DNA of 64,000 nucleotides from an uncultured Bryobacterales bacterium (GTDB taxonomy: Bacteria; Acidobacteriota; Terriglobia; Bryobacterales; UBA6623): positions 5,158,062 to 5,222,061 of the forward strand of contig OX638379.1 of the NCBI GenBank assembly GCA_951813605.1, in the 5' to 3' direction. Position 1 is the stretch's first letter; each line of letters begins with the position of its first letter. Made by a program: the position numbers and the translations under genes. Below are positions 50,933 through 63,377 of this stretch, piece after piece. Below the pieces are notes generated by a model. That model was given only the letters and a program-made list of their open reading frames with translations, ran no database searches and had not been told where the DNA came from.

Positions 50933-52573
50933 TCAGTCCCCGGTCCTAGGCTCGCGGATCTTGTGAACGAGACGTGACGCGAGCCTGCCCAAGCGCTGGA
51001 TCTTGCCGCTTGGCCAATGGACCTCGACATCGGCCGCATCGCTAGCGCCCAGCCCGAAATGGAGTCTCAGGTCGTGCTGGGAAATGTAGCTGCCGCCCCC
51101 TCGGACTTCGCCGCTCTGGCTCCGTCCCGAGCTTCGGACCAGCACTCGTGCCCCGATCGCGCTCCGGTTCGACTCAGTTCCCTCGAGGTCAAGGAGAATC
51201 CAGTTTTCCCAGGCCTCCCCAGTCTGCGCGAGCAAGGCCGGACGTTCGTTCTGGCTGTTGATCAGCGCCTCGAGCCTCCCGTCGTTGTCGATGTCGGCTA
51301 AGGCCAGGCCCCGCGCGGCTCGGCGCTCTGCCAGTCCCGGCCCGGATGTCAGCGAGATGTCCACGAATCGCTTCCCTCCGAGGTTGCGGTAGAGGACGGG
51401 CCTCTCGCGGTAGTTCAGGTCGCTGTCTGCCAGGTTCTCCACTTCCGGGAAGACGTGGCCGTTGACTAGCAGAACGTCGCGCCAGCCGTCATTGTCGGCG
51501 TCGAGGAAGGCGCATCCCCACCCCACGAAGCGCGTGTTGACCCCCAGCCCGTACCGCACCGTCGCGTCGTCGTAGTCGCCGTTCCCGCGATTGGCGTACA
51601 AGGTTGAGCGCTCGTCGGAAAAATTAGTGCGGAACAAGTCGTCCCTGCCATCGCCGTCGAAATCGCCAGCGGCGACGCCCATGCCGGAAAGTGCCTCGCC
51701 GTGCTCGTCAAAGGCCACCCCGCGCAGAACCGCTTCGTCGCGGAAGGTGCCGTCGCCCTGGTTCACGTAAAGGATGGAAGGGGTGCGGTCGCAGGCTACG
51801 TAGATATCCGTCCAGCCGTCGGCGTTATAATCGCCGGTCACCGCCCCGAGCGAGTAATTCCGTCGCGGCAAGCCGATTCCGCTGGCCAGCGACACATCCT
51901 TGAACTCACCGCGACCTTCGTTTCGCAGCAGCTCGTTCCGAGCGAATGGAAGGCCCCTGGGGCCGCACGCCACAGGAATGTTGCGGTAGAAGCAGTAGGG
52001 GTTCTCGCCAGGTTCGGGGGTCGTTTCGAAGTCGAATCGCAGATAGTTCGAGATAAAGAGGTCGAGGTCGCCGTCGTTGTCGTGGTCGACAAAGGCACAG
52101 CCGGTGCTGTAGCTGCCGCTGTCGGGCACTGGCACGGCCTCGAATTGCAGGCCCGATTTATTCTCGTAGAGCCTGTTCGTGCCCCAGTACGTGACGAAGA
52201 GGTCGGTGAAGCCATCGTTGTTGAAGTCGCCCGCGCAGACTCCTTGCCCCCAGCCATCGCTTTGCAGGCGCAGACGCTCGGTCGCGTCCTCGAAACGCCT
52301 CGCCCCCAGATTCTGGTAGAGGCGGTTCGTGCCGCCCGGCCCGGAAACCGCGAAGGCGTCCTGAAGGCCGTCGGCGTTGAAATCGAGAAATGCCGCGCCG
52401 CTACCGGTCGTCTCGAGAATCCATTTCTTGGCTTGGTCGCCGCCGTTCGGCAAGACATGCGTGAGCCCTGCGTCCTCGGCGATGTCGACATAGCGAATTG
52501 ACGAGCCTGCCGCAATTCCGGCACTGGAGATCGCTGCCGCCATTGCGGCGAGTCGAAAGCGGATTGGTATCAC
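50933..52573 (-). CDS. CRTAC1 family protein (seven-bladed FG-GAP propeller with ASPIC/UnbV)
   Basis: 546 residues with a signal peptide (RLAAMAAAISSAGIAAG). Seven D-x-D-x-D-G loops: DFNADGLQD, DFNNDGFTD, DHDNDGDLD, DYNADGWTD, DFDGDGRDD, DADNDGWRD and DIDNDGRLE. The ASPIC/UnbV tail reads ENWILLDLEGTESNRSAIGARVLVRSSG, RGGGSYISQHDLRLHFGLG and EVHWPSGK. It is the last gene of a four-gene operon; its ATG overlaps the stop of the TPR gene by four bases. Family members sit at the outer membrane or are secreted, but no bacterial function has been shown. Confidence 0.93.
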   Translation of the reverse strand: MIPIRFRLAAMAAAISSAGIAAGSSIRYVDIAEDAGLTHVLPNGGDQAKKWILETTGSGAAFLDFNADGLQDAFAVSGPGGTNRLYQNLGARRFEDATERLRLQSDGWGQGVCAGDFNNDGFTDLFVTYWGTNRLYENKSGLQFEAVPVPDSGSYSTGCAFVDHDNDGDLDLFISNYLRFDFETTPEPGENPYCFYRNIPVACGPRGLPFARNELLRNEGRGEFKDVSLASGIGLPRRNYSLGAVTGDYNADGWTDIYVACDRTPSILYVNQGDGTFRDEAVLRGVAFDEHGEALSGMGVAAGDFDGDGRDDLFRTNFSDERSTLYANRGNGDYDDATVRYGLGVNTRFVGWGCAFLDADNDGWRDVLLVNGHVFPEVENLADSDLNYRERPVLYRNLGGKRFVDISLTSGPGLAERRAARGLALADIDNDGRLEALINSQNERPALLAQTGEAWENWILLDLEGTESNRSAIGARVLVRSSGRSQSGEVRGGGSYISQHDLRLHFGLGASDAADVEVHWPSGKIQRLGRLASRLVHKIREPRTGD

Positions 52574-53598
52574 GGGGCCTCGCCGATTCGGCGCAAGAAT
52601 TCGCTGAACTCGCCTTCATCGGTAGACTGCAGCCGCTCCAGCGCCCGTTGCAGGCGCTCGGCGTCGGCGCGCCGCCCCGCGTTGCGGTAGGCCAGCATCA
52701 GGCTGTAGTGGGCGGGCTCGCTCTGGGGGTGCAATTCCAAGGCCCGCTCCAGGAGATCGATCGCTTCGTCGAACTGCTCCGACGTTGCGCGCAGCTTGCC
52801 GAGCGCTATCAGAGCCTCTGGAAACGCACCGTCCAGGTCCACGGCCCGTTCGAAATGCCGGGCGGCTTCGGACGGTCGGCCCAGCACCTGATGGATCTGG
52901 CCAATCTGGAATTCGGCGACAGCGTCGTTCGGGTTTAGCCGCAGCTCGGCTCGGAACTCGGCAAGCGCTCCCTCCAGCGCCTGCGGTTCATGCGACCGCA
53001 TCAGCAGCGCTCGTCCCAAGCGGTAGTGCAAGTTGATCGTGGCGGGAGCCTTTTCGATCGCCTTGCGATATTCGTGCACGGCGTCGTCGTAGCGGCCTTG
53101 GATCTCGAAGATCTCCGCAGAGAGCTGGTTGACGCGAAACGAGGCGGGCGCCGCGGCAAACATCGCGGCCACTGCATCGTTCCAGCCCTTGAGGTGCAAG
53201 CGGGCGGTCTCGTAAAGGATTTCGGGGTCGGCCGGATCCCCTGATCGGAGGTTGGCCAAGGTGTTCAGTGCGGTGTCGAATTGCTGGCCGGCAATAGCGC
53301 ACCGCGCCGCCGCGAGCCCGGCCAGCTTGGCCGTCGACGCGTCGCCCTCGGCAGCCGCAGCGAGTTTCGGGAGTACGTCGGCACAGCCGCCGAGAGAAGC
53401 CTCTACTATCGCCGCGAGCGCTCCGGCACGCGGGTCAGCCGATTCCGCGAATCGCTTCTTGGCCATCAGGTAGTCGCCGGATTCGACCAGACGCAGGCCG
53501 TCTTCGAACGGCACGTCCGCCCGGGCAGTGCTTGCTCCCATGGCAAGCGCTGCGGCAATCGCCAGCGAGGCAGGGCCATGCCCTCTAGTGGCCGGCAT
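52570..53598 (-). CDS. Exported TPR protein of the CRTAC1 operon
   Basis: 342 residues with a signal peptide (LAIAAALAMGASTARA). The protein is tetratricopeptide repeats, clearest at the C-terminus: INLHYRLGRALLMRSHEPQALEGALAEFRAELRLNPNDAVAEFQIGQIHQVLGRPSEAARHFERAVDLDGAFPEALIALGKLRATSEQFDEAIDLLERALELHPQSEPAHYSLM is broken into pieces such as VAEFQIGQIHQVLGRPSEAA and AHYSLMLAYRNAGRRADAER. No enzymatic motif is visible. It overlaps the 98-aa gene by 14 bases and the CRTAC1 gene by four, so translation of all three is linked. Confidence 0.88.
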   Translation of the reverse strand: MPATRGHGPASLAIAAALAMGASTARADVPFEDGLRLVESGDYLMAKKRFAESADPRAGALAAIVEASLGGCADVLPKLAAAAEGDASTAKLAGLAAARCAIAGQQFDTALNTLANLRSGDPADPEILYETARLHLKGWNDAVAAMFAAAPASFRVNQLSAEIFEIQGRYDDAVHEYRKAIEKAPATINLHYRLGRALLMRSHEPQALEGALAEFRAELRLNPNDAVAEFQIGQIHQVLGRPSEAARHFERAVDLDGAFPEALIALGKLRATSEQFDEAIDLLERALELHPQSEPAHYSLMLAYRNAGRRADAERLQRALERLQSTDEGEFSEFLRRIGEAP

Positions 53599-53881
53599 CG
53601 TCCATCATCAGGTCTAGTTCGCCGAACCGGTGGCGCCGCCGATCCTCCAAGTAGCGGAATGCCAGCATGGGCGGGTCTCCGGGCGCCAAGCGCGATTGCG
53701 GTTGCAATCGCTCGGACGAAGACACCCCGAGGGTGTCCAGCCGTCCGGAACGCTCGATTCTCGCGAGAATTGCCGACTCGGCCTGCCGGTCTCCCGCCGC
53801 CCGCGGTACCGCGCAAACAGCGAGCGCCATGGCTAACAGCCACCTCATCATCCGTGTCCGGCTTGCCGCTTCCGGCTTCAT
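53585..53881 (-). CDS. Small exported hypothetical protein
   Basis: 98 residues with a signal peptide (MRWLLAMALAVCAVPRAAGD, after an 11-residue n-region; Cys at 23 is within it). The mature part has no recognised fold: LERIxxSGR-type charged helix (ILARIERSGRLDTLGVS) and a conserved-looking end (LAFRYLEDRRRHRFGELDLMMDDAGH). The ATG directly follows the stop of the 463-aa gene (TGAATG), and its end overlaps the TPR gene by 14 bases, which strongly supports it as real. It is too short to have many alternatives; its role is tied to the operon. I do not recognise a family. Confidence 0.75.
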   Translation of the reverse strand: MKPEAASRTRMMRWLLAMALAVCAVPRAAGDRQAESAILARIERSGRLDTLGVSSSERLQPQSRLAPGDPPMLAFRYLEDRRRHRFGELDLMMDDAGH

Positions 53882-55273
53882 TCAGAGTAGCGCGGGACCG
53901 GCGGCGATCTTCGCTTCGGGGCTCGGATTCCCGGGTTCCAGCCCTAGCCAGTGCGCGCAGGATAGGAAGACCTCCTCGAGCCGCTGCGGGCCATCGACTG
54001 CAAAGAGAGGGAAATCGGGAGGAGCGACCGCGAACAGTGCGTCCATCCCGATTCCAATGAAGAGGTATGCCGTGTTGCGTCTGTACTCGGCGTACTTTTC
54101 GCACTCCTGCCAGATGTATTGATAGAACACCTCGAGATCGACGTAGGTACCGAGCATGTCGGCTTGGGTCGGGATGGGGCTTGTCTCTTCTTGGTCCGAG
54201 TAGATCAGCAGGCTGCTGAACGGTTTGACCTTGTTGCGGATCCCGAACGAGGCCAGCAGCACGGAAGGCCGGGCACGGCGGATCGCTTGGAGTGCCGTCC
54301 ATTCCACGAAGGTGTTGTTGATGAGAAGCGTGCCGTTGCCGTTCAGCAACACGGATTGGAGGAAGTCTTGCATCACGGGGTCGCGTCCGGCGGCCCGGCG
54401 CAAAGCCCCGGGGCTCATCTTCTGCAGGCGCTCGCCTAGCTGGCGCGGCCCCGGGATCTTCTCTTGCGTGACGAGCTCGTTGACCTCTTTCATGAGCATC
54501 CGCCGCAGGTCTGCCAGGCGCGCGTAGCTCAAGCCGACCCAGCCTTCGAAGGACTGCGCCAGCCGCAGAATCGGATCGGCGGCCTCGACAACCCAGGCGT
54601 CGGACGGATTTCGCCCGCGCTGCCGGGCGTAAAGGTCGAAGACGCTCGGGGCTTGATTCGCGCGCGGCGCCCCGCAGAGCAGCCGTGCCAAGTAGTCCGA
54701 GAGCTTGGCATCATCGGCCAGCTCCAGCGGCACTAGACGGCCCCTGTCGCGGATGCGAGTCCACATTCGGTCGGGTCCTATGGGCAGTTCCGCCGGCGAA
54801 ACGACCGTCACCAGCCTGGGGTTGCCCGACCTTGCGACTTCCGCGTCCAGAATCGGGTCGATCTTGTAGAAGACACCCGCGATCGCGGCCCTCCACTCCG
54901 CGAGATGTCGGCTGCGCTGCAAGAAGTCCACGTGCTCGAGAGTGAACTTGCGCGTCTTCCAGATCCCCCCGCCGATGTCCATCTTCCGCTCGACGTCGCG
55001 AAGCGGGACGAAGAGTTTCCTGACCGCATCGGCCGAGGACCGGTCCAGCAGCCCGAAGAGCCGCTCGAAATACTCGTGCTCCGCGGGAAAGAGCTTCTTC
55101 CAGTCGCTGATCCGATCGAGCGAGTATACGGAGAAGGTCGCGGGCAGTCGTTCAAAGAGGCCGTTCTCGACCAGCCGCCGGATCGTCGGGCTGTAGTCTT
55201 GCATGAACCACGGGCCTAAGGGGCCCAGCCGCGGGCCGGGCCGGGAGCCCGTCACCGCGGCATCCTCACTCAT
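53882..55273 (-). CDS. Uncharacterised 463-aa protein, first gene of the CRTAC1 operon
   Basis: 463 residues with no signal peptide, mixed alpha/beta, likely cytoplasmic. Noticeable stretches: LGPWFMQDYSPTIRRLVENGLFERLP, HEYFERLFGLLDR, RKMDIGGGIWKTRKFTLEHVDFLQRSRHLAEWRAAIAGVFYKIDP, LLINNTFVEWTALQAIRRARPSVLLASFGIRNKVKPFSSLLIYSDQEETSPIPTQ and FIGIGMDALFAVAPPDFPLFAVDGP. I know no family that matches, and no nucleotide- or metal-binding motif stands out. The TGAATG junction with the next gene and the same direction as the TPR and CRTAC1 genes place it as the leader of a coupled unit. The sequence is well mixed and ungapped, so it is a genuine protein. Confidence 0.8.
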   Translation of the reverse strand: MSEDAAVTGSRPGPRLGPLGPWFMQDYSPTIRRLVENGLFERLPATFSVYSLDRISDWKKLFPAEHEYFERLFGLLDRSSADAVRKLFVPLRDVERKMDIGGGIWKTRKFTLEHVDFLQRSRHLAEWRAAIAGVFYKIDPILDAEVARSGNPRLVTVVSPAELPIGPDRMWTRIRDRGRLVPLELADDAKLSDYLARLLCGAPRANQAPSVFDLYARQRGRNPSDAWVVEAADPILRLAQSFEGWVGLSYARLADLRRMLMKEVNELVTQEKIPGPRQLGERLQKMSPGALRRAAGRDPVMQDFLQSVLLNGNGTLLINNTFVEWTALQAIRRARPSVLLASFGIRNKVKPFSSLLIYSDQEETSPIPTQADMLGTYVDLEVFYQYIWQECEKYAEYRRNTAYLFIGIGMDALFAVAPPDFPLFAVDGPQRLEEVFLSCAHWLGLEPGNPSPEAKIAAGPALL

Positions 55274-56441: not shown

Positions 56442-57806
56442 ATGCCTGCAGCCAGGCCGAATCGACGCCAGATAATCCGCTCGCTGGCCGGCGGCGGCTT
56501 GCTCTTGCCCGGCCTGCTGTCGGAAATGATGGCTTCCACGCAGGAAGACCCGCTGGCGGCGAAGTCTCCGCATTACCCCGCCAAGGCCAAGCACGTGATC
56601 TTCCTGTTCATGACTGGCGGCGTGTCGCACGTCGACACGTTCGACCCAAAGCCGCTCCTGCGCGAGAACCACGACAAGCCTCACAGCAAGAATCGCGTCT
56701 ACAAAGGGACCGACTGGGAGTTTCGTGCGTACGGAAAGAGCGGGACCGAGGTAAGCGACCTCTTCCCCGAGATCGGGAAGGTCATTGACGAAATCGCGGT
56801 CGTGCGCTCGATGAAGAACATCAACGGCGACCACTTTGGCGCTACGCTGGGCATCCATACTGGATCCGCGACGTTCAACCGGCCCAGCATTGGGTCGTGG
56901 GTCAGCTACGGCCTAGGCACGATTAACACGAACCTGCCGTCCTTTGTCGTCATCGCGCCTGAGATTCCCTACGCCGGCGGGCAGGTATGGGGCTCGGACT
57001 TCCTCCCGGTCCTGCATCAGGGGACGCGCATCGTTCCGGGCGACGAGCCCATCGCGCACATGAGCCGGCGGATCTCGTCCGGCCAGCAGCGCACCGAACT
57101 TGACATGCTCGAGTACTTCAATCGCCAGCACCTCCGCGGGCGCGAGCGCGACAGCAACCTCTCCGCCCGCATCAAGTCATTCGAGACCGCATTCGGCATG
57201 CAGGCCGAGGCCCCGGATGCGTTCGATCTCTCGGGCGAGTCGGACGCGACCTTGAAGATGTACGGCTTGGAGAGGGGAAGCACCGAAGGCTTCGCTTGGC
57301 AGTGCATGGTGGCGCGTCGGCTCGTCGAGCGCGGCGTGCGCTTCGTCGAGCTTATCGACGGCGGCACGATGCTGGACAAGAACTGGGACTCGCACGCCAA
57401 GATGGCGAACTACAACCGCATGGCACGGAACGTCGACAAGCCGATCGGCGCGCTAATCAGCGACCTGAAGTCGAGGGGGATGCTCGACGAGACGATCGTC
57501 GTTTGGACCACCGAGTTCGGCCGGACGCCGACCTGTCCTTCGCCCGGGGCCGAAGGACGCGGACACCACGCCAAAGTGTATAGCTCGTGGCTGGCCGGAG
57601 GCGGCATCAAGGGCGGCGTGGTCTACGGGGCGAGTGACGAGATGGGCTTCGACGTCGCGGAGGATCCCGTCACGGTGCATGATTTCCAAGCGACAATCCT
57701 CGACCGGCTGGGCATGGACCACGAGCGGCTGACGTACCGCCACGCGGGTCGCGACTTCCGGCTCACTGACGTGCACGGGCGGGTAGTGAAGGAACTCTTG
57801 GCGTAG
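56442..57806 (+). CDS. DUF1501 family protein (Tat-type leader)
   Basis: 454 residues. The leader is twin-arginine-like (RPNRRQIIRSLAGGGLLLPGLL). Family landmarks: HVIFLFMTGGVSHVDTFDPKP, WEFRAYGKSGTEVSDLFPEIG, RSMKNINGDHFGATLGIHTGS, YGLGTINTNLPSFVVIAPE, RRLVERGVRFVELIDGG, VVWTTEFGRTPTCPSPGAEGRGHHAKVYSSWLAGGGIKGGVVYG, and HDFQATILDRLGMDH. Compared with the two other copies in the window it has TTEFG instead of GGEFG in the core. It is not paired with a PSD1 cytochrome gene here; the next gene is a TonB receptor with its own promoter. Confidence 0.94.
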   Translation: MPAARPNRRQIIRSLAGGGLLLPGLLSEMMASTQEDPLAAKSPHYPAKAKHVIFLFMTGGVSHVDTFDPKPLLRENHDKPHSKNRVYKGTDWEFRAYGKSGTEVSDLFPEIGKVIDEIAVVRSMKNINGDHFGATLGIHTGSATFNRPSIGSWVSYGLGTINTNLPSFVVIAPEIPYAGGQVWGSDFLPVLHQGTRIVPGDEPIAHMSRRISSGQQRTELDMLEYFNRQHLRGRERDSNLSARIKSFETAFGMQAEAPDAFDLSGESDATLKMYGLERGSTEGFAWQCMVARRLVERGVRFVELIDGGTMLDKNWDSHAKMANYNRMARNVDKPIGALISDLKSRGMLDETIVVWTTEFGRTPTCPSPGAEGRGHHAKVYSSWLAGGGIKGGVVYGASDEMGFDVAEDPVTVHDFQATILDRLGMDHERLTYRHAGRDFRLTDVHGRVVKELLA

Positions 57807-57950
57807 CCGCGAAAGGGGAGTCAAGATCTCCCGGGCATTCAGGCGGATTCCCTGAGAGTCGGATCGGATTCACGTTCTTGGCTTGAGCAGTCAGTGCGGC
57901 GCTGTCCTATCGGAGCTGTGCGGCCTGGGGCCCCCTAGTCGGTTTCCGTG

Positions 57951-57956
57951 TATAAT
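57951..57956 (+). promoter_or_regulatory. Probable -10 box of the TonB receptor gene
   Basis: A perfect TATAAT, with TG just before it (GTGTATAAT), lies 92 bases ahead of the receptor start. The -35 region is weak. It implies a leader transcript of about 80 bases containing a small hairpin followed by T6 (AGTC-TTGAG-GACTTTTTT near 57979-57992) and then a good ribosome-binding site (AGAGGAGTGA). Confidence 0.55.
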
Positions 57957-58047
57957 CACATCGGTGGGATTAGCTAGTCTTGAGGACTTTTTTACCCGCT
58001 TAGAGCAAAACGGGGCATCTAAGGCCCTCCAGAGGAGTGAACTATCC

Positions 58048-61000
58048 ATGCGAGCAACTGTATTTCGCGTGATCCCGATTCTCCTTCTCGCTTGCCTCGC
58101 GGCGATGCCCGCGGCGGCGCAGCGAGACATGGGAACGCTGCTCGGCAGCGTAACGGATCCGTCCGGCGCCGCGATTCCCGGCGCTACGATCACGATTACC
58201 GAGGAGTCCACCGGCGTCACCGACATGGTCGAGTCGGATGTCGTGGGCAACTACATCCGGCCCTTGATCAAGCCGGGCACCTACACTATCGGGTGCGAAT
58301 CGCCCGGCTTCAAGAGGTCCGTGCAGACGGGCGTGACCCTGCAGTCGGCGGGCCGCGTCCAGTCGAACTTCGTTCTCGAGATCGGCGAAGTCACCGAGAC
58401 CATCGAGGTGTCCGCCGCCCCGCCCGCCTTGCAGACGGAAACCACGCAGATGGGCGGCACACTGGAGACCCGCCAGACGAGCGAGCTTCCGCTCGGCGGG
58501 CAGCGGCGCTTCGCGTTCCTTGCGCGGACGGTGCCGGCGGTGGTGCCGGCCGAGCCCGGCGCGCGCGATGCGGCGGGCGGCGGGTTTTCGGCCAACGGCG
58601 TGCGCTCGAACGGCCAGAACAACTTCCTGCTGAACGGCGTTGACAACAACGTCAACGTGATCGACTTCATCAACCAGACCGCCTACGTGGTCGGGCCGTC
58701 GGTGGAGGCGATCGGCGAGATGCAGATCCTGACGAACGGCTACAACGCCGAGTACGGGCGCGCCGCCGGAGGCGTGGTCAACGTCACGATCAAGTCCGGC
58801 ACGAACGAGGTCCACGGGACGCTCTTCGAGTTCCTGCAGAACACGAAGTTGAACGCCAATCCCTGGCATCTCAACAAGAACAACAACCCTCGGCAGCCCT
58901 ACAAGCAGAACCAATTCGGCGCGGCAGTCGGCGGACCCATCGCCAGGAACCGCACGTTCTGGTTCGCGGACTACCAAGGGACCCTCATTCGCGACGGGAG
59001 CTTGGCTAGCACGCTGACCGTTCCGAGTCCAGGCATGGCCAGCGGTGACTTCTCCAACATCCTCGTCCCGGGCGAAATCCTCGGCGTCGACGCCGTAGGA
59101 AGGAATGTGGCGCGCGGGCAGATCTACGACCGCATGACGCAGAGGGAAGTCGGCGGTAAAGTGATCCGCGACCCGTTCCCCAACAACATGATTCCCGCGG
59201 CTAGATTCGACTCCATCGCGTCGAACCTGATCGGCCAGTATCCCAGCGAGAACCAGAATCTCAGCGGGGCCGGCAAGCGCCCCGGCAGCAACTACTTCAC
59301 CACGCGCAATGCCGAACGGGACGTGCATCAGTGGGACGTGCGCGTCGACCACCGGATTTCCGACAACGACAGCCTTTTCGGCAGTCTGAGCTGGATCGAC
59401 GAGCAGAAGTTCCAGTCGCCGCCGCTTCCCGGTCATCTGGACGCGGGCGGCTTTCTTGGCGAGACCGAGGAGAACCTCAGCCGGGCAGCGATGATGAGCT
59501 ACACGAAGATCTGGTCCCCGACCTTCATCACCGAGTCTCGCGTCGCCTACTCGCGGCTCATCACCACCCGCGTGCAGAGCAATGCCGACAGCGATTCGTT
59601 CGGGGAACTGGGCTTCGGCGGCCTGAATCCGTTCACGACGAACAACGGCGGCCTCATGCGGCTCGGGCCGGCGGGCTACAGCACAGTCGGCGGGTCCGAA
59701 TGGCTTCCGACGCAGGAGTACAACAACGTCTGGGACTTCATCCAGAACGTATCGTGGAACAAGGGCTCCCACGCCATCAAGTTCGGAGCCGAATACCGGC
59801 CGATCGGCTTCCCCTTCTTCCAGGTGCCCTCCCCGCGCGGCCAGATGCGTTTCGATCGAGCCGATTCCAACCAAGTGGGTTTCGCTGACACTGGCGACGG
59901 CATGGCGTCTTGGCTGCTCGGCGACGTCCATTGGGCCCGCATCACAACCGCGAACTTCATTTCCTCGTTCAAGGACGCCTATTCGTTCTTCGTGCAGGAT
60001 GACTGGAAGGTTTCTTCCAAGCTGACCATCAATCTCGGCGTGCGCTATGAACTAACCACTCCGATCGGCGAGAAGTTCGGGCGCCAGGCCCACCTTGACG
60101 TTTTCGGATCGGACCACAATGTCCCGACGCTGGTCATTCCGAAGGGCAAGGACCAGGAGTCGCCGCTGCCGCCCAACTTCGTGACGGACTATCCCAGCAT
60201 TGCCATCGAGCGCGGGGTTGCTTCGACGTACCTGACCGAGTGGGATCGGACCAATCTCGCACCCCGGATCGGTTTCGCTTACGAAGCGATGCCCGGTACC
60301 GTCATCCGTGCAGGGTACGGGATCTTCTACGGTGCCGAAGAGAACGAGGGGGGCAACCCCAACCGCGGGGAGAACGTCCCGTTCAACCAAGAGACTCGTT
60401 TCGTAAAGGCGCGGAATTCGGATCAGAACCCGTTCGTCAAGCGGTTCTCGGACGGGTTTCCTGTCGACGCATTCACCCTTCCCGCGCCGATTTCATTCCG
60501 CTCCCTCTACACCCAGAGACGCTGGCCTCTGGTCAACAAGTGGAACTTCAACCTGCAGCGCGACCTAGGATGGAACTCTGTTCTCGAAGTCGCCTACATC
60601 GGCTCCAAGGGCAACAGGCTCACGGACAACTACAACGGGAACCCTCTAGTTAACGACCCGCGTCCGAACCAGGCGACGCTCCCGCGCCGACCCTTCAAGT
60701 TCGTCGATTCCGGGATTTCGTTCACCAACAGCAACGGCCGCTCGACGTACAGCGCGTTCACCGCGAAGCTCGACAAGCGGTACTCTGACGGATTGGGCTT
60801 CCTGGCTGCCTATACGTGGGGGCACGCGCTGGCGGATACAGGCACCACCCTATCGGGCGGGCCAGGCAATCGCACTCCGCACCAGTCCCTCGAGTACGCG
60901 CACGCTAGCTTCGACGTCCGGCACCGATTCGTTCTGAGCGGCAACTGGAATCTGCCCAGCCCCGCCAACCTGTCCGGGCCGGCGCGCGTGATCGTCGGCG

Positions 61001-61449
61001 GGTGGCAGTTGAACGGCATTCTCACGCTTCAGACTGGCAACTACTTCAACATCGGTACCAACCGATCCGTGTGCTCTTGTTCCGGCACGACACGCCCGGA
61101 CCCCGTTTCCGGAAGGGATCCCAACGCAGCTCCGTCTGGAGGTCGCACGCCCGAGCAGTGGTTTGACACGTCGGCATTCCAAGACCCGGTGGTTGGCACC
61201 TACGGATCTCTCGGCAACTACAGCAACATCGGACCGCCCACAAACACGGTCGACCTCTCGCTGTTCAAGGACTTCCCGATCACGGAGAGTTCCAAGGTGC
61301 AGTTTCGCATCGAGTCTTTCAACCTTATGAACACGCCGCAGTTCAGCAGGCCGCAATCCACGCAGGGCAGGCCCGACTTCGGGCGGATCAACAGCGCGCG
61401 CGGCGGCCTGAACCGGCAGTTCCAATTCGCCTTGCGCTTCATGTTCTAG
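58048..61449 (+). CDS. TonB-dependent receptor, Oar-like, with carboxypeptidase-regulatory domain
   Basis: 1133 residues from an ATG at 58048, chosen for its AGAGGAG ribosome-binding site and signal peptide (VFRVIPILLLACLAAMPAAAQ). A carboxypeptidase-regulatory domain spans about residues 28-115 (GTLLGSVTDPSGAAIPGATITITEES, VVGNYIRPLIKPGTYTIGCESPGF). The plug includes NFLLNGVDNNVNVIDFINQTAYVVGPSVEAIGEMQILTNGYNAEYGRAAGGVVNVTIKSGTNEVHGTLFEFLQN, a hallmark of this clade. The barrel ends in LRFMF, with the typical terminal Phe. It is the second such receptor in the window and probably imports a large organic ligand; which one is unknown. It ends in a strong terminator. Confidence 0.94.
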   Translation: MRATVFRVIPILLLACLAAMPAAAQRDMGTLLGSVTDPSGAAIPGATITITEESTGVTDMVESDVVGNYIRPLIKPGTYTIGCESPGFKRSVQTGVTLQSAGRVQSNFVLEIGEVTETIEVSAAPPALQTETTQMGGTLETRQTSELPLGGQRRFAFLARTVPAVVPAEPGARDAAGGGFSANGVRSNGQNNFLLNGVDNNVNVIDFINQTAYVVGPSVEAIGEMQILTNGYNAEYGRAAGGVVNVTIKSGTNEVHGTLFEFLQNTKLNANPWHLNKNNNPRQPYKQNQFGAAVGGPIARNRTFWFADYQGTLIRDGSLASTLTVPSPGMASGDFSNILVPGEILGVDAVGRNVARGQIYDRMTQREVGGKVIRDPFPNNMIPAARFDSIASNLIGQYPSENQNLSGAGKRPGSNYFTTRNAERDVHQWDVRVDHRISDNDSLFGSLSWIDEQKFQSPPLPGHLDAGGFLGETEENLSRAAMMSYTKIWSPTFITESRVAYSRLITTRVQSNADSDSFGELGFGGLNPFTTNNGGLMRLGPAGYSTVGGSEWLPTQEYNNVWDFIQNVSWNKGSHAIKFGAEYRPIGFPFFQVPSPRGQMRFDRADSNQVGFADTGDGMASWLLGDVHWARITTANFISSFKDAYSFFVQDDWKVSSKLTINLGVRYELTTPIGEKFGRQAHLDVFGSDHNVPTLVIPKGKDQESPLPPNFVTDYPSIAIERGVASTYLTEWDRTNLAPRIGFAYEAMPGTVIRAGYGIFYGAEENEGGNPNRGENVPFNQETRFVKARNSDQNPFVKRFSDGFPVDAFTLPAPISFRSLYTQRRWPLVNKWNFNLQRDLGWNSVLEVAYIGSKGNRLTDNYNGNPLVNDPRPNQATLPRRPFKFVDSGISFTNSNGRSTYSAFTAKLDKRYSDGLGFLAAYTWGHALADTGTTLSGGPGNRTPHQSLEYAHASFDVRHRFVLSGNWNLPSPANLSGPARVIVGGWQLNGILTLQTGNYFNIGTNRSVCSCSGTTRPDPVSGRDPNAAPSGGRTPEQWFDTSAFQDPVVGTYGSLGNYSNIGPPTNTVDLSLFKDFPITESSKVQFRIESFNLMNTPQFSRPQSTQGRPDFGRINSARGGLNRQFQFALRFMF

Positions 61450-61469
61450 GCGGCCGGCCGCCCGGCTCA

Positions 61470-61502
61470 GGGCCCTCGCCCTCCGGGGCGGGGGCCTTTT
61501 TT
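61470..61502 (+). terminator. Rho-independent terminator after TonB receptor
   Basis: GGCCCTCGCCC-TCCG-GGGCGGGGGCC forms an 11-bp GC-rich stem (one mismatch) with a 4-nt loop and is followed directly by T6. It lies 21 bases after the receptor stop and separates it from the CRTAC1 gene. Confidence 0.88.
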
Positions 61503-61595
61503 CTGGCCTCCGGGCTGGCTCGAGCCCACGCCTCCAGCAATCGGATATGGTGTGGTCTTGGACGGCTGCGCGTCCGCGCAGAGGCTGCTCGGATC

Positions 61596-63377
61596 GTGGC
61601 AACGCCTAGCTCAATGGGAATCGAAACCGTGATTGCCGGGCAAGACACGAGTTCCGGCCTGCAGATTCGCTGCCCGCGACTTTGCAGCTGGTTGTTTGCC
61701 GTGCTCGCCCTCCTGCCCGGCATGCAGGGCGCAGCTCCTCGATACGAGGATGTCGCCCGGGAAGCGGGCATCCGCGACACGGTGACCTACGGCAGCGCGA
61801 CCTCCAACAGCTATATCTTGGAAACGACCGGCACGGGCGCTGCGATTCTCGATTTTGATCGCGACGGCGACAACGATGTTTTGGTCGTGAACGGCACGAC
61901 CTTTGACCTATGGGCTTCAGGGGACAGCCCGCCTCTGTTGCTATACATCAACAACGGAAATGGCGAGTTTCGTGAAGCCGCTGAGGCAGCTGGACTCTCT
62001 GGCCGTGGGTGGGGCCAGGGTGCTTGCGTCGGTGACATCGACAACGACGGCTGGGACGACCTGCTGGTCACGTACTACGGGTCCAACGTTCTGTATCGGA
62101 ACGGCAGCGGGCGATTCCAGGACGCTAGCAGCGGACTGGCTCAAACGGCCGGCCAGCGGCGCTGGGGCGCCGGTTGCGCGTTCTTCGACTACGACGCGGA
62201 CGGACTTCTCGACTTGTTTGTCGCCAACTACGTGGACTTCGATCCTGAAAGCACGCCGAAGCCCGGCTCCAGCGGGGCGTGCGAATGGAAGGGGATTCCA
62301 GTCATGTGCGGCCCGCGCGGACTGCCTCGCGCGACCAACATCCTATACCGGAATCTAGGGGGCGGCGAGTTCGAGGACGTGTCGTCGTCGTCGGGAATTC
62401 TTGAACCGGGCGGCCGCTACTCCCTCGGCGTCGTCGCGGCGGACTTCGACAACGACGGTGACTCCGATGTCTACGTCGCCTGCGACATGACACCCAGCCT
62501 GCTTTACAGGAACAACGGGGACGGCACATTCACGGACATTGCCTCGCTGGCAGGGGTCGGCTACAACGCGGACGGACAACTCCAAGCAGGGATGGGAGTC
62601 GCGGTGGCCGACTACGACCGGAACGGCTTCTTGGATATTGCGAAGACGAATTTCTCGGGCGACCTGCCGTCGCTCTATAACAACGAGGACGGGGTCTTTT
62701 TCGAGGACGTCGCTTTCGATGCCGGCCTCGGCAAGCATCAACTCCTGGGATGGGGCGCGGTGTTCGTCGATGCGGACGAGGATGGGCTGCCGGACCTGAT
62801 GATGGCCAACGGCCACGTGTATCCGGAGGTCGACGCGGCACCCATAGGCGAAACCTATCGACAGCAGACGGTGCTCTACAAGAACCTGGGGGACGGAACT
62901 TTCGAAGACATCACCGGACGCGCAGGTCCGGCTCTGCAGGATGGGCGGCCGGCCCGCGGCATGGCTTCGGGTGACTTGGACGGGGACGGGCACCCGGAGA
63001 TTGTATTGGTGAATGTCAACGCCCCGCCTTCGCTTCTGAAGAACACCGATTTCGCAGGCAAAGCCGCCTCGATCCGTCTGCAAGGAACCGATTCGAATCG
63101 GAATGCGATTGGATCTCGCGTCGATCTCGTAATCGGCAAGCGGCGTTTCATGCAGGCGGTGGTCGGGGGCGGCAGCTATTACTCGCAAAGCGACTTCGCG
63201 CTTCACTTCGGTCTTGGTGACGCCGACACGATCGACGCGATCGAAATCGCTTGGCCCAACGGACTTCGGCAGCGGTGGACTGATCTCGCGGGAAATCGCC
63301 GGTACTTGTTCGTGGAAGGCCGTGCGGAGGTGGAGTCTGCCTCTCTCAATCGCAGAGGGCCGACCGGCTCACGGTGA
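61596..63377 (+). CDS. CRTAC1 family protein (seven-bladed FG-GAP propeller with ASPIC/UnbV)
   Basis: 593 residues; a signal peptide lies at about residues 27-46 (LCSWLFAVLALLPGMQGA), so the real start may be the ATG at 61614 rather than 61596. Seven calcium loops are present: DFDRDGDND, DIDNDGWDD, DYDADGLLD, DFDNDGDSD, DYDRNGFLD, DADEDGLPD and DLDGDGHPE. The ASPIC/UnbV domain shows AASIRLQGTDSNRNAIGSRVDLVIG, VVGGGSYYSQSDFALHFGLG and EIAWPNGL. It is not coupled to a TPR gene, unlike the two other copies, but follows the TonB receptor after its terminator. Confidence 0.93.
   Translation: MATPSSMGIETVIAGQDTSSGLQIRCPRLCSWLFAVLALLPGMQGAAPRYEDVAREAGIRDTVTYGSATSNSYILETTGTGAAILDFDRDGDNDVLVVNGTTFDLWASGDSPPLLLYINNGNGEFREAAEAAGLSGRGWGQGACVGDIDNDGWDDLLVTYYGSNVLYRNGSGRFQDASSGLAQTAGQRRWGAGCAFFDYDADGLLDLFVANYVDFDPESTPKPGSSGACEWKGIPVMCGPRGLPRATNILYRNLGGGEFEDVSSSSGILEPGGRYSLGVVAADFDNDGDSDVYVACDMTPSLLYRNNGDGTFTDIASLAGVGYNADGQLQAGMGVAVADYDRNGFLDIAKTNFSGDLPSLYNNEDGVFFEDVAFDAGLGKHQLLGWGAVFVDADEDGLPDLMMANGHVYPEVDAAPIGETYRQQTVLYKNLGDGTFEDITGRAGPALQDGRPARGMASGDLDGDGHPEIVLVNVNAPPSLLKNTDFAGKAASIRLQGTDSNRNAIGSRVDLVIGKRRFMQAVVGGGSYYSQSDFALHFGLGDADTIDAIEIAWPNGLRQRWTDLAGNRRYLFVEGRAEVESASLNRRGPTGSR

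Follow-up and report, generated by a model that had tools for sequence, protein, structure and literature searches.

How a protein without a signal peptide comes to be encoded in tight coupling with three proteins that are likely exported is the question raised by a 4.3 kb minus-strand operon in the window, the 64,000-nucleotide stretch from an uncultured Bryobacterales bacterium (Acidobacteriota) analyzed here. Its four ORFs encode u463, u98, a TPR protein, and a CRTAC1 protein (Table 1). An ORF check returned their coordinates and three junctions exactly as given in the initial annotation, which had read the four genes as one functional unit. The analysis points instead to a different partner: u463 is probably a non-catalytic partner with an alkaline phosphatase (AP) fold, either a subunit or a maturation factor, of a paralogue termed c3.

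Table 1. Genes and junctions of the four-gene operon, in window coordinates.
Feature	Coordinates	Strand	Size or sequence	Description	Basis
u463	53882..55273	-	463 aa	Predicted AP fold; putative active site missing	ORF, AlphaFold, structure matches, c3 profile
u98	53585..53881	-	98 aa	Hydrophobic N-terminus (likely exported); first gene of the u98-TPR-CRTAC1 module	
TPR protein	52570..53598	-	342 aa	Likely exported	ORF, Pfam, gene order
CRTAC1	50933..52573	-	546 aa	Seven-bladed FG-GAP propeller with UnbV_ASPIC; likely exported	
u463/u98 junction	53879..53884	-	TGAATG	Stop-start; candidate translational coupling	
u98/TPR overlap	53585..53598	-	14 bases	Gene overlap	
TPR/CRTAC1 overlap	52570..52573	-	GTGA, 4 bases	Gene overlap	

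The CRTAC1 gene encodes an FG-GAP propeller (FG-GAP_3, Pfam E 3.9e-49) together with an UnbV_ASPIC domain (E 7.7e-18), the composition of the CRTAC1/ASPIC-UnbV family. Its description as seven-bladed is borne out by seven D-x-[DN]-x-DG blade motifs counted by eye, with six FG-GAP_3 stretches found by Pfam, which also backs the identity of the TPR gene. The 14-base overlap between u98 and the TPR gene recurs at loci L002-L005, L007, L011, L015, and L025. The true start of u463 is probably M24, near position 55204, because the ORFs of close relatives (L002-L005 and L025) begin at this position (MQDYSP...); the protein would then have 440 residues, with the first 23 of the ORF probably untranslated. 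In some close relatives, u463 and u98 are separated by roughly 1 kb of additional, ORF-containing sequence (L002 9445-10416, L005 9531-10160, L025 9361-10416), which interrupts the tight coupling of the window. A divergent second cluster occupies 56442-63377 on the plus strand and comprises a DUF1501 protein (56442-57806, Pfam E 1.8e-133), an Oar-like outer membrane protein (57883-61449), and a CRTAC1-like protein (~61596-63377). The DUF1501 gene adjoins u463 in a conserved manner in L002-L006 and L008.

The three downstream genes hold together. The order u98, TPR, CRTAC1 is found in 27 of 30 loci, and u98 carries a hydrophobic N-terminus in 13 of 14 relatives. No match to u98 was found in Pfam, NCBIfam, PHROGs, or PADLOC, and its distribution is confined to one order of Acidobacteriota; in a draw of genomes across the phylum only its own genome matched. 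It is nonetheless a real gene, since its frame is open in 41 genomes and is under protein-level selection (dN/dS ~0.2-0.3); the same conservation and dN/dS rule out a chance ORF. The C-terminus of u98, ...DDAGH, is invariant. Its codons overlap the first codons of the TPR gene (53585-53598), so part of this conservation is imposed by the TPR reading frame. Together, u98, TPR, and CRTAC1, all three probably exported, make up a conserved module.

A contig scan of genomes yielded 28 u463 loci, all from Acidobacteriota. A hydrophobic N-terminus is present in none of the 28 relatives, in agreement with the initial reading of u463 as a protein without a signal peptide. There is no match to u463 in Pfam, NCBIfam, PHROGs, PADLOC, or the PDB sequences, and a housekeeping or other known family was rejected on this basis; its placement outside any family thus holds for the sequence libraries, whereas by fold it falls within the AP superfamily. 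The AlphaFold model (pLDDT 83.5, pTM 0.83) places an AP-type α/β core in the C-terminal two thirds of the protein, preceded by an extra helical N-terminal part (residues ~1-150). All 50 VIA matches listed are AP superfamily members, with Z scores of 14.8-16.1 over model residues 150-463 (best match: Z 16.1, rmsd 3.9 over ~210 residues). Foldseek agrees in that its best 23 PDB matches are all AP superfamily proteins, with weak E values (best 3.4e-3, none below 1e-3).

The protein most often encoded next to u463 is c3, an exported AP-superfamily protein of ~385 aa, which is in turn often accompanied by c4 (~230 aa). The predicted fold of c3 is the clearer of the two: structural comparison aligns it to PafA with Z 25.7 and rmsd 3.4 over 296 residues, and Foldseek returns an E value of 3.5e-9, both consistent with an AP-type core. 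By sequence, c3 yields only a sub-threshold Sulfatase match in Pfam and, in the PDB, only a short C-terminal match to PafA (E 7e-4); it does not reach the gathering score of DUF1501 (PF07394), with no match at E up to 10. Residues D264, H269, and D317 are invariant in 28 of 28 sequences, and D266 and H327 are conserved in 27 of 28. Comparison of motifs indicates a non-canonical active site, with glycine in place of the first metal-motif aspartate and histidine at the nucleophile position; hydrolase activity of this unusual site is putative. A Tat-like signal ([RK]Rx[FLM]) was found in all 15 c3 proteins examined by a simple motif and hydropathy test rather than a trained predictor. c4 belongs to PF00174 (Oxidored_molyb, E 3.5e-35), and its best NCBIfam match is MsrP (E 5e-25), although its 88.4 bits fall short of the equivalog cut-off of 207.

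Profile comparison relates u463 to c3. In hhalign the two align with Prob 90 and E 1.7e-6, and with more distant members added the score is 38.7, with residues 157-453 of u463 colinear with 71-413 of c3; the reversed control scores 14.4 and eight block-shuffled controls score 15.1-26.5. When the c3 profile is run against the 6.2-Mb genome of the window, c3 ranks first and u463 second (E 0.016). Two other relationships were considered and rejected: u463 shows no relation to c4 by profile comparison (Prob 0.1), and it is not a DUF1501 member, given a negative profile comparison and no Pfam DUF1501 match at E up to 1.

What separates the paralogues is the putative active site. In a joint alignment of 47 u463 relatives, the positions of c3 D264 and H269 are replaced in every one (no D and no H in any of the 47), the loop bearing D317 and H327 is deleted in all 47, and the D266 position is replaced in almost all; the position of c3 H87 shows no conservation. 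By this comparison u463 has lost the nucleophile and metal ligands expected of an active AP superfamily member, where the c3 residues are assigned as putative metal ligands by their place in the AP motifs and "inactive" is meant relative to the invariant residues of c3. The gene is not decaying but strongly constrained, as its dN/dS is ~0.1. On these sequence and model comparisons, u463 is best described as a maintained pseudoenzyme-like paralogue of c3, because the predicted fold and the alignment to c3 are kept, the invariant residues and loop are gone, and dN/dS is low. Retention of a pseudoenzyme beside an enzyme-like paralogue is a known kind of arrangement.

The constraint on u463 could also mean that it is still an enzyme. 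Its own motif, GxGT...TFxxW...RRxxP...R..KP, is conserved out to the most distant relatives, and a lysine or arginine occupies the c3 H269 position in 44 of 47 sequences; both, along with the low dN/dS, would suit an AP-like core that has acquired a new site for catalysis or ligand binding. Against this, u463 has lost the metal-loop part of the fold, and no pocket can be argued for the motif because the model is less confident over some of it (residues 341-370, pLDDT 57-72). A re-purposed active site is very unlikely, and the pseudoenzyme reading is preferred.

The company that u463 keeps supports c3 as its partner. Among 150 genomes of the window's order, 61 carry u463, and 60 of these also carry c3 (Fisher p 8e-36, uncorrected for common descent). 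In the order survey c3 lies directly upstream of u463 on the same strand in 50 of 66 loci, most of the exceptions coming from contig ends or from the genus of the window. In four genomes c3 is seen without u463; two of these are fragments, and in G002 both c3 and c4 are interrupted by stop codons. G035 contains c3 and c4 with no u463 found in a draft that is 91% complete with 7% contamination, and in G057 u463 is partial and c3 missing. G002, a member of the window's genus, has neither u463 nor u98 in addition to the stops in c3 and c4 (G002:C109:77323-79095), an apparent co-loss. Across the phylum, 22 of 297 genomes surveyed contain u463 relatives; most belong to a single family within the same class, taken to be Acidobacteriaceae, and c3 adjoins u463 in 18 of 19 loci examined. 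L167 (Acidobacteriaceae) and L170 have the c3-u463 pair in an otherwise unrelated gene context free of CRTAC1/TPR genes, with the two genes overlapping by 4 and 1 bases, respectively.

These distributions bear on the reading from which the analysis set out, namely that the four genes form one unit, perhaps with u463 as the cytoplasmic factor that readies or controls a surface complex built from the CRTAC1 propeller and the TPR scaffold. The junctions in the window are coupled, and u98 is almost never found without u463 (u463 is present in 39 of 41 u98-positive genomes and, at genus level, 20 of 22, both uncorrected for common descent). u463 precedes u98-TPR-CRTAC1 in several genera; the order is direct in L013 and L015, with ATGA overlaps, and near-direct in G068 and G092. 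On the other hand, 22 of the 61 u463-positive genomes lack u98, L167 and L170 pair u463 with c3 only, and u463 lies within 4 kb of u98 on the same strand in only 16 of 41 u98 loci, being apart or on another contig in 25. The unit proposed initially therefore survives in part: u98-TPR-CRTAC1 is conserved and u98 is rarely without u463, but the constant partner of u463 is c3. The finding that the initial annotation had named as grounds for refutation, homologs regularly found apart from CRTAC1/TPR genes, applies to u463 and not to u98, so u463 is not intrinsic to the CRTAC1 operon. A dedicated role for u463 in preparing or controlling the surface complex is accordingly unlikely, and the four-gene operon is a composite in which u463 is joined to a separate u98-TPR-CRTAC1 unit.

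A probable origin of this composite can be read from relatives. Clustering of neighboring ORFs shows that many of them have one long operon, c4-c3-u463-[CRTAC1/TPR fusion]-u98-TPR-CRTAC1, often preceded by genes for an Oar-like outer-membrane protein and a TPR protein. The fusion gene (~1,100 aa) is not always present; in L007, L011, L012, and L014 it is coupled to u98 by an ATGA overlap, a point in favor of the initial one-unit reading. In the window's genome the operon is distributed over three distant pieces, all of which are kept: u463-u98-TPR-CRTAC1 at 5.21 Mb, c4-c3 at 2.708-2.710 Mb, and a CRTAC1/TPR fusion with 54% identity at 2.317 Mb. The c4-c3 piece, with c3 at G000:C1:2708159-2709307, follows genes for a histidine kinase and a response regulator of OmpR type (L039 9154-13574; G000:C1 ~2.708-2.713 Mb). 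E. coli MsrP is also encoded near a two-component system, a parallel that may be coincidence. Two further fusion genes are found at G000:C1:5037824-5041090 and 1052825-1055986, with one in-frame TGA counted in each. A further match to the fusion query at 5212034-5212945 was discarded as an off-frame hit over u463 that arose from an over-extended query ORF (L007 8309-12763).

Because all parts of the split operon have been kept, their continued joint use is argued for, though not proven. The dispersal can also be taken to mean that the tight u463-u98 junction is a by-product of rearrangement and that u463 acts only in trans with c3, unrelated to the surface operon; the location of c4-c3 and the fusion gene at two other sites of the same genome, and the c3-u463 pair as the minimal unit elsewhere, are compatible with this. 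Yet u463 and u98 are linked within 4 kb on one strand in eight other genera, and the link therefore predates the rearrangement, which leaves a purely accidental junction improbable.

The predicted fold, the paralogy with c3, the loss of its invariant residues, the constraint, the co-occurrence, and the order and splitting of the operon are results of computation; complex formation between u463 and c3, a route of export, and a role in the envelope are inferences. In the favored reading of u463 as a partner of c3, the two proteins, in most relatives made from neighboring, coupled genes, would bind to each other after synthesis, and u463 would stabilize or hold c3. By one route, u463 would be carried through the Tat pore together with c3 as a hitchhiker, which fits the lack of a signal peptide in u463 and the Tat-like signal of c3; by the other, it would stay in the cytoplasm as a maturation factor of c3. 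c3 would then act in the cell envelope and, in one branch, do so together with c4 and the CRTAC1/TPR proteins. In the window's genus, the splitting of the old operon over three loci would have left u463 coupled to u98-TPR-CRTAC1. A bolder and rather unlikely extension is that an active-like (c3) and an inactive (u463) AP-fold chain form a heteromer, with u463 carried by Tat, that modifies or repairs the u98-TPR-CRTAC1 proteins together with the MsrP-like enzyme. If true, a heteromer and a molybdoenzyme acting on these proteins would constitute an undescribed envelope system of Acidobacteriota.

The open-access literature yielded no paper on CRTAC1/TPR operons in Acidobacteria; the Solibacter paper (PMC3174227) mentions an ASPIC/UnbV paralogue only in a listing. 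To our knowledge, the u463-c3 pair is new, as is its association with a molybdoenzyme and with CRTAC1/TPR proteins. Two protein families that had no name in any library searched, u463 and c3, thereby acquire a fold, a partner, and a role that can be tested across the Acidobacteriota, whose members abound in soil but are difficult to study. The tandem of an AP-superfamily protein with a conserved, inactive paralogue is a clean natural case of a pseudoenzyme retained next to its relative, and one unit of the CRTAC1 neighborhood, u98-TPR-CRTAC1, is separated from what is joined to it.

Among known systems, the AP superfamily (PafA/SPAP, NPP, sulfatases, iPGM, LtaS, and YejM) shares its predicted fold with both u463 (Z ~16) and c3 (Z up to 25.7). 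u463 differs in having neither the residues nor the loop that correspond to c3 D264, D266, H269, D317, and H327, as well as in its extra helical N-terminal part and lack of a signal peptide. The DUF1501 protein of the window has motifs in common with c3 (GGV..(D/E)TF.P, HF..T....TG, and E[LF]GR, as seen by eye), and comparison of c3 with the DUF1501 set of the window gives a weak profile match (P 0.017). Similar to MsrP/YedY and SoxC, c4 matches PF00174, and it precedes c3 in the operon of many relatives; in contrast to MsrP, it scores far below the equivalog cut-off, and in the window it does not adjoin u463. Hitchhiker export through Tat is known for E. coli PaoABC (PMC4273604) and for the hitchhiker protein of an FAD glucose dehydrogenase (PMC6719666). 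As in these systems, u463 is a signal-less protein encoded with a partner that bears a Tat signal, and it combines the absence of its own signal with a Tat partner and gene adjacency, the last at 50 of 66 loci, the window's genus being an exception. Whereas the partners in those two systems are not paralogues, u463, whose export is putative, is a paralogue of the signal-bearing c3.
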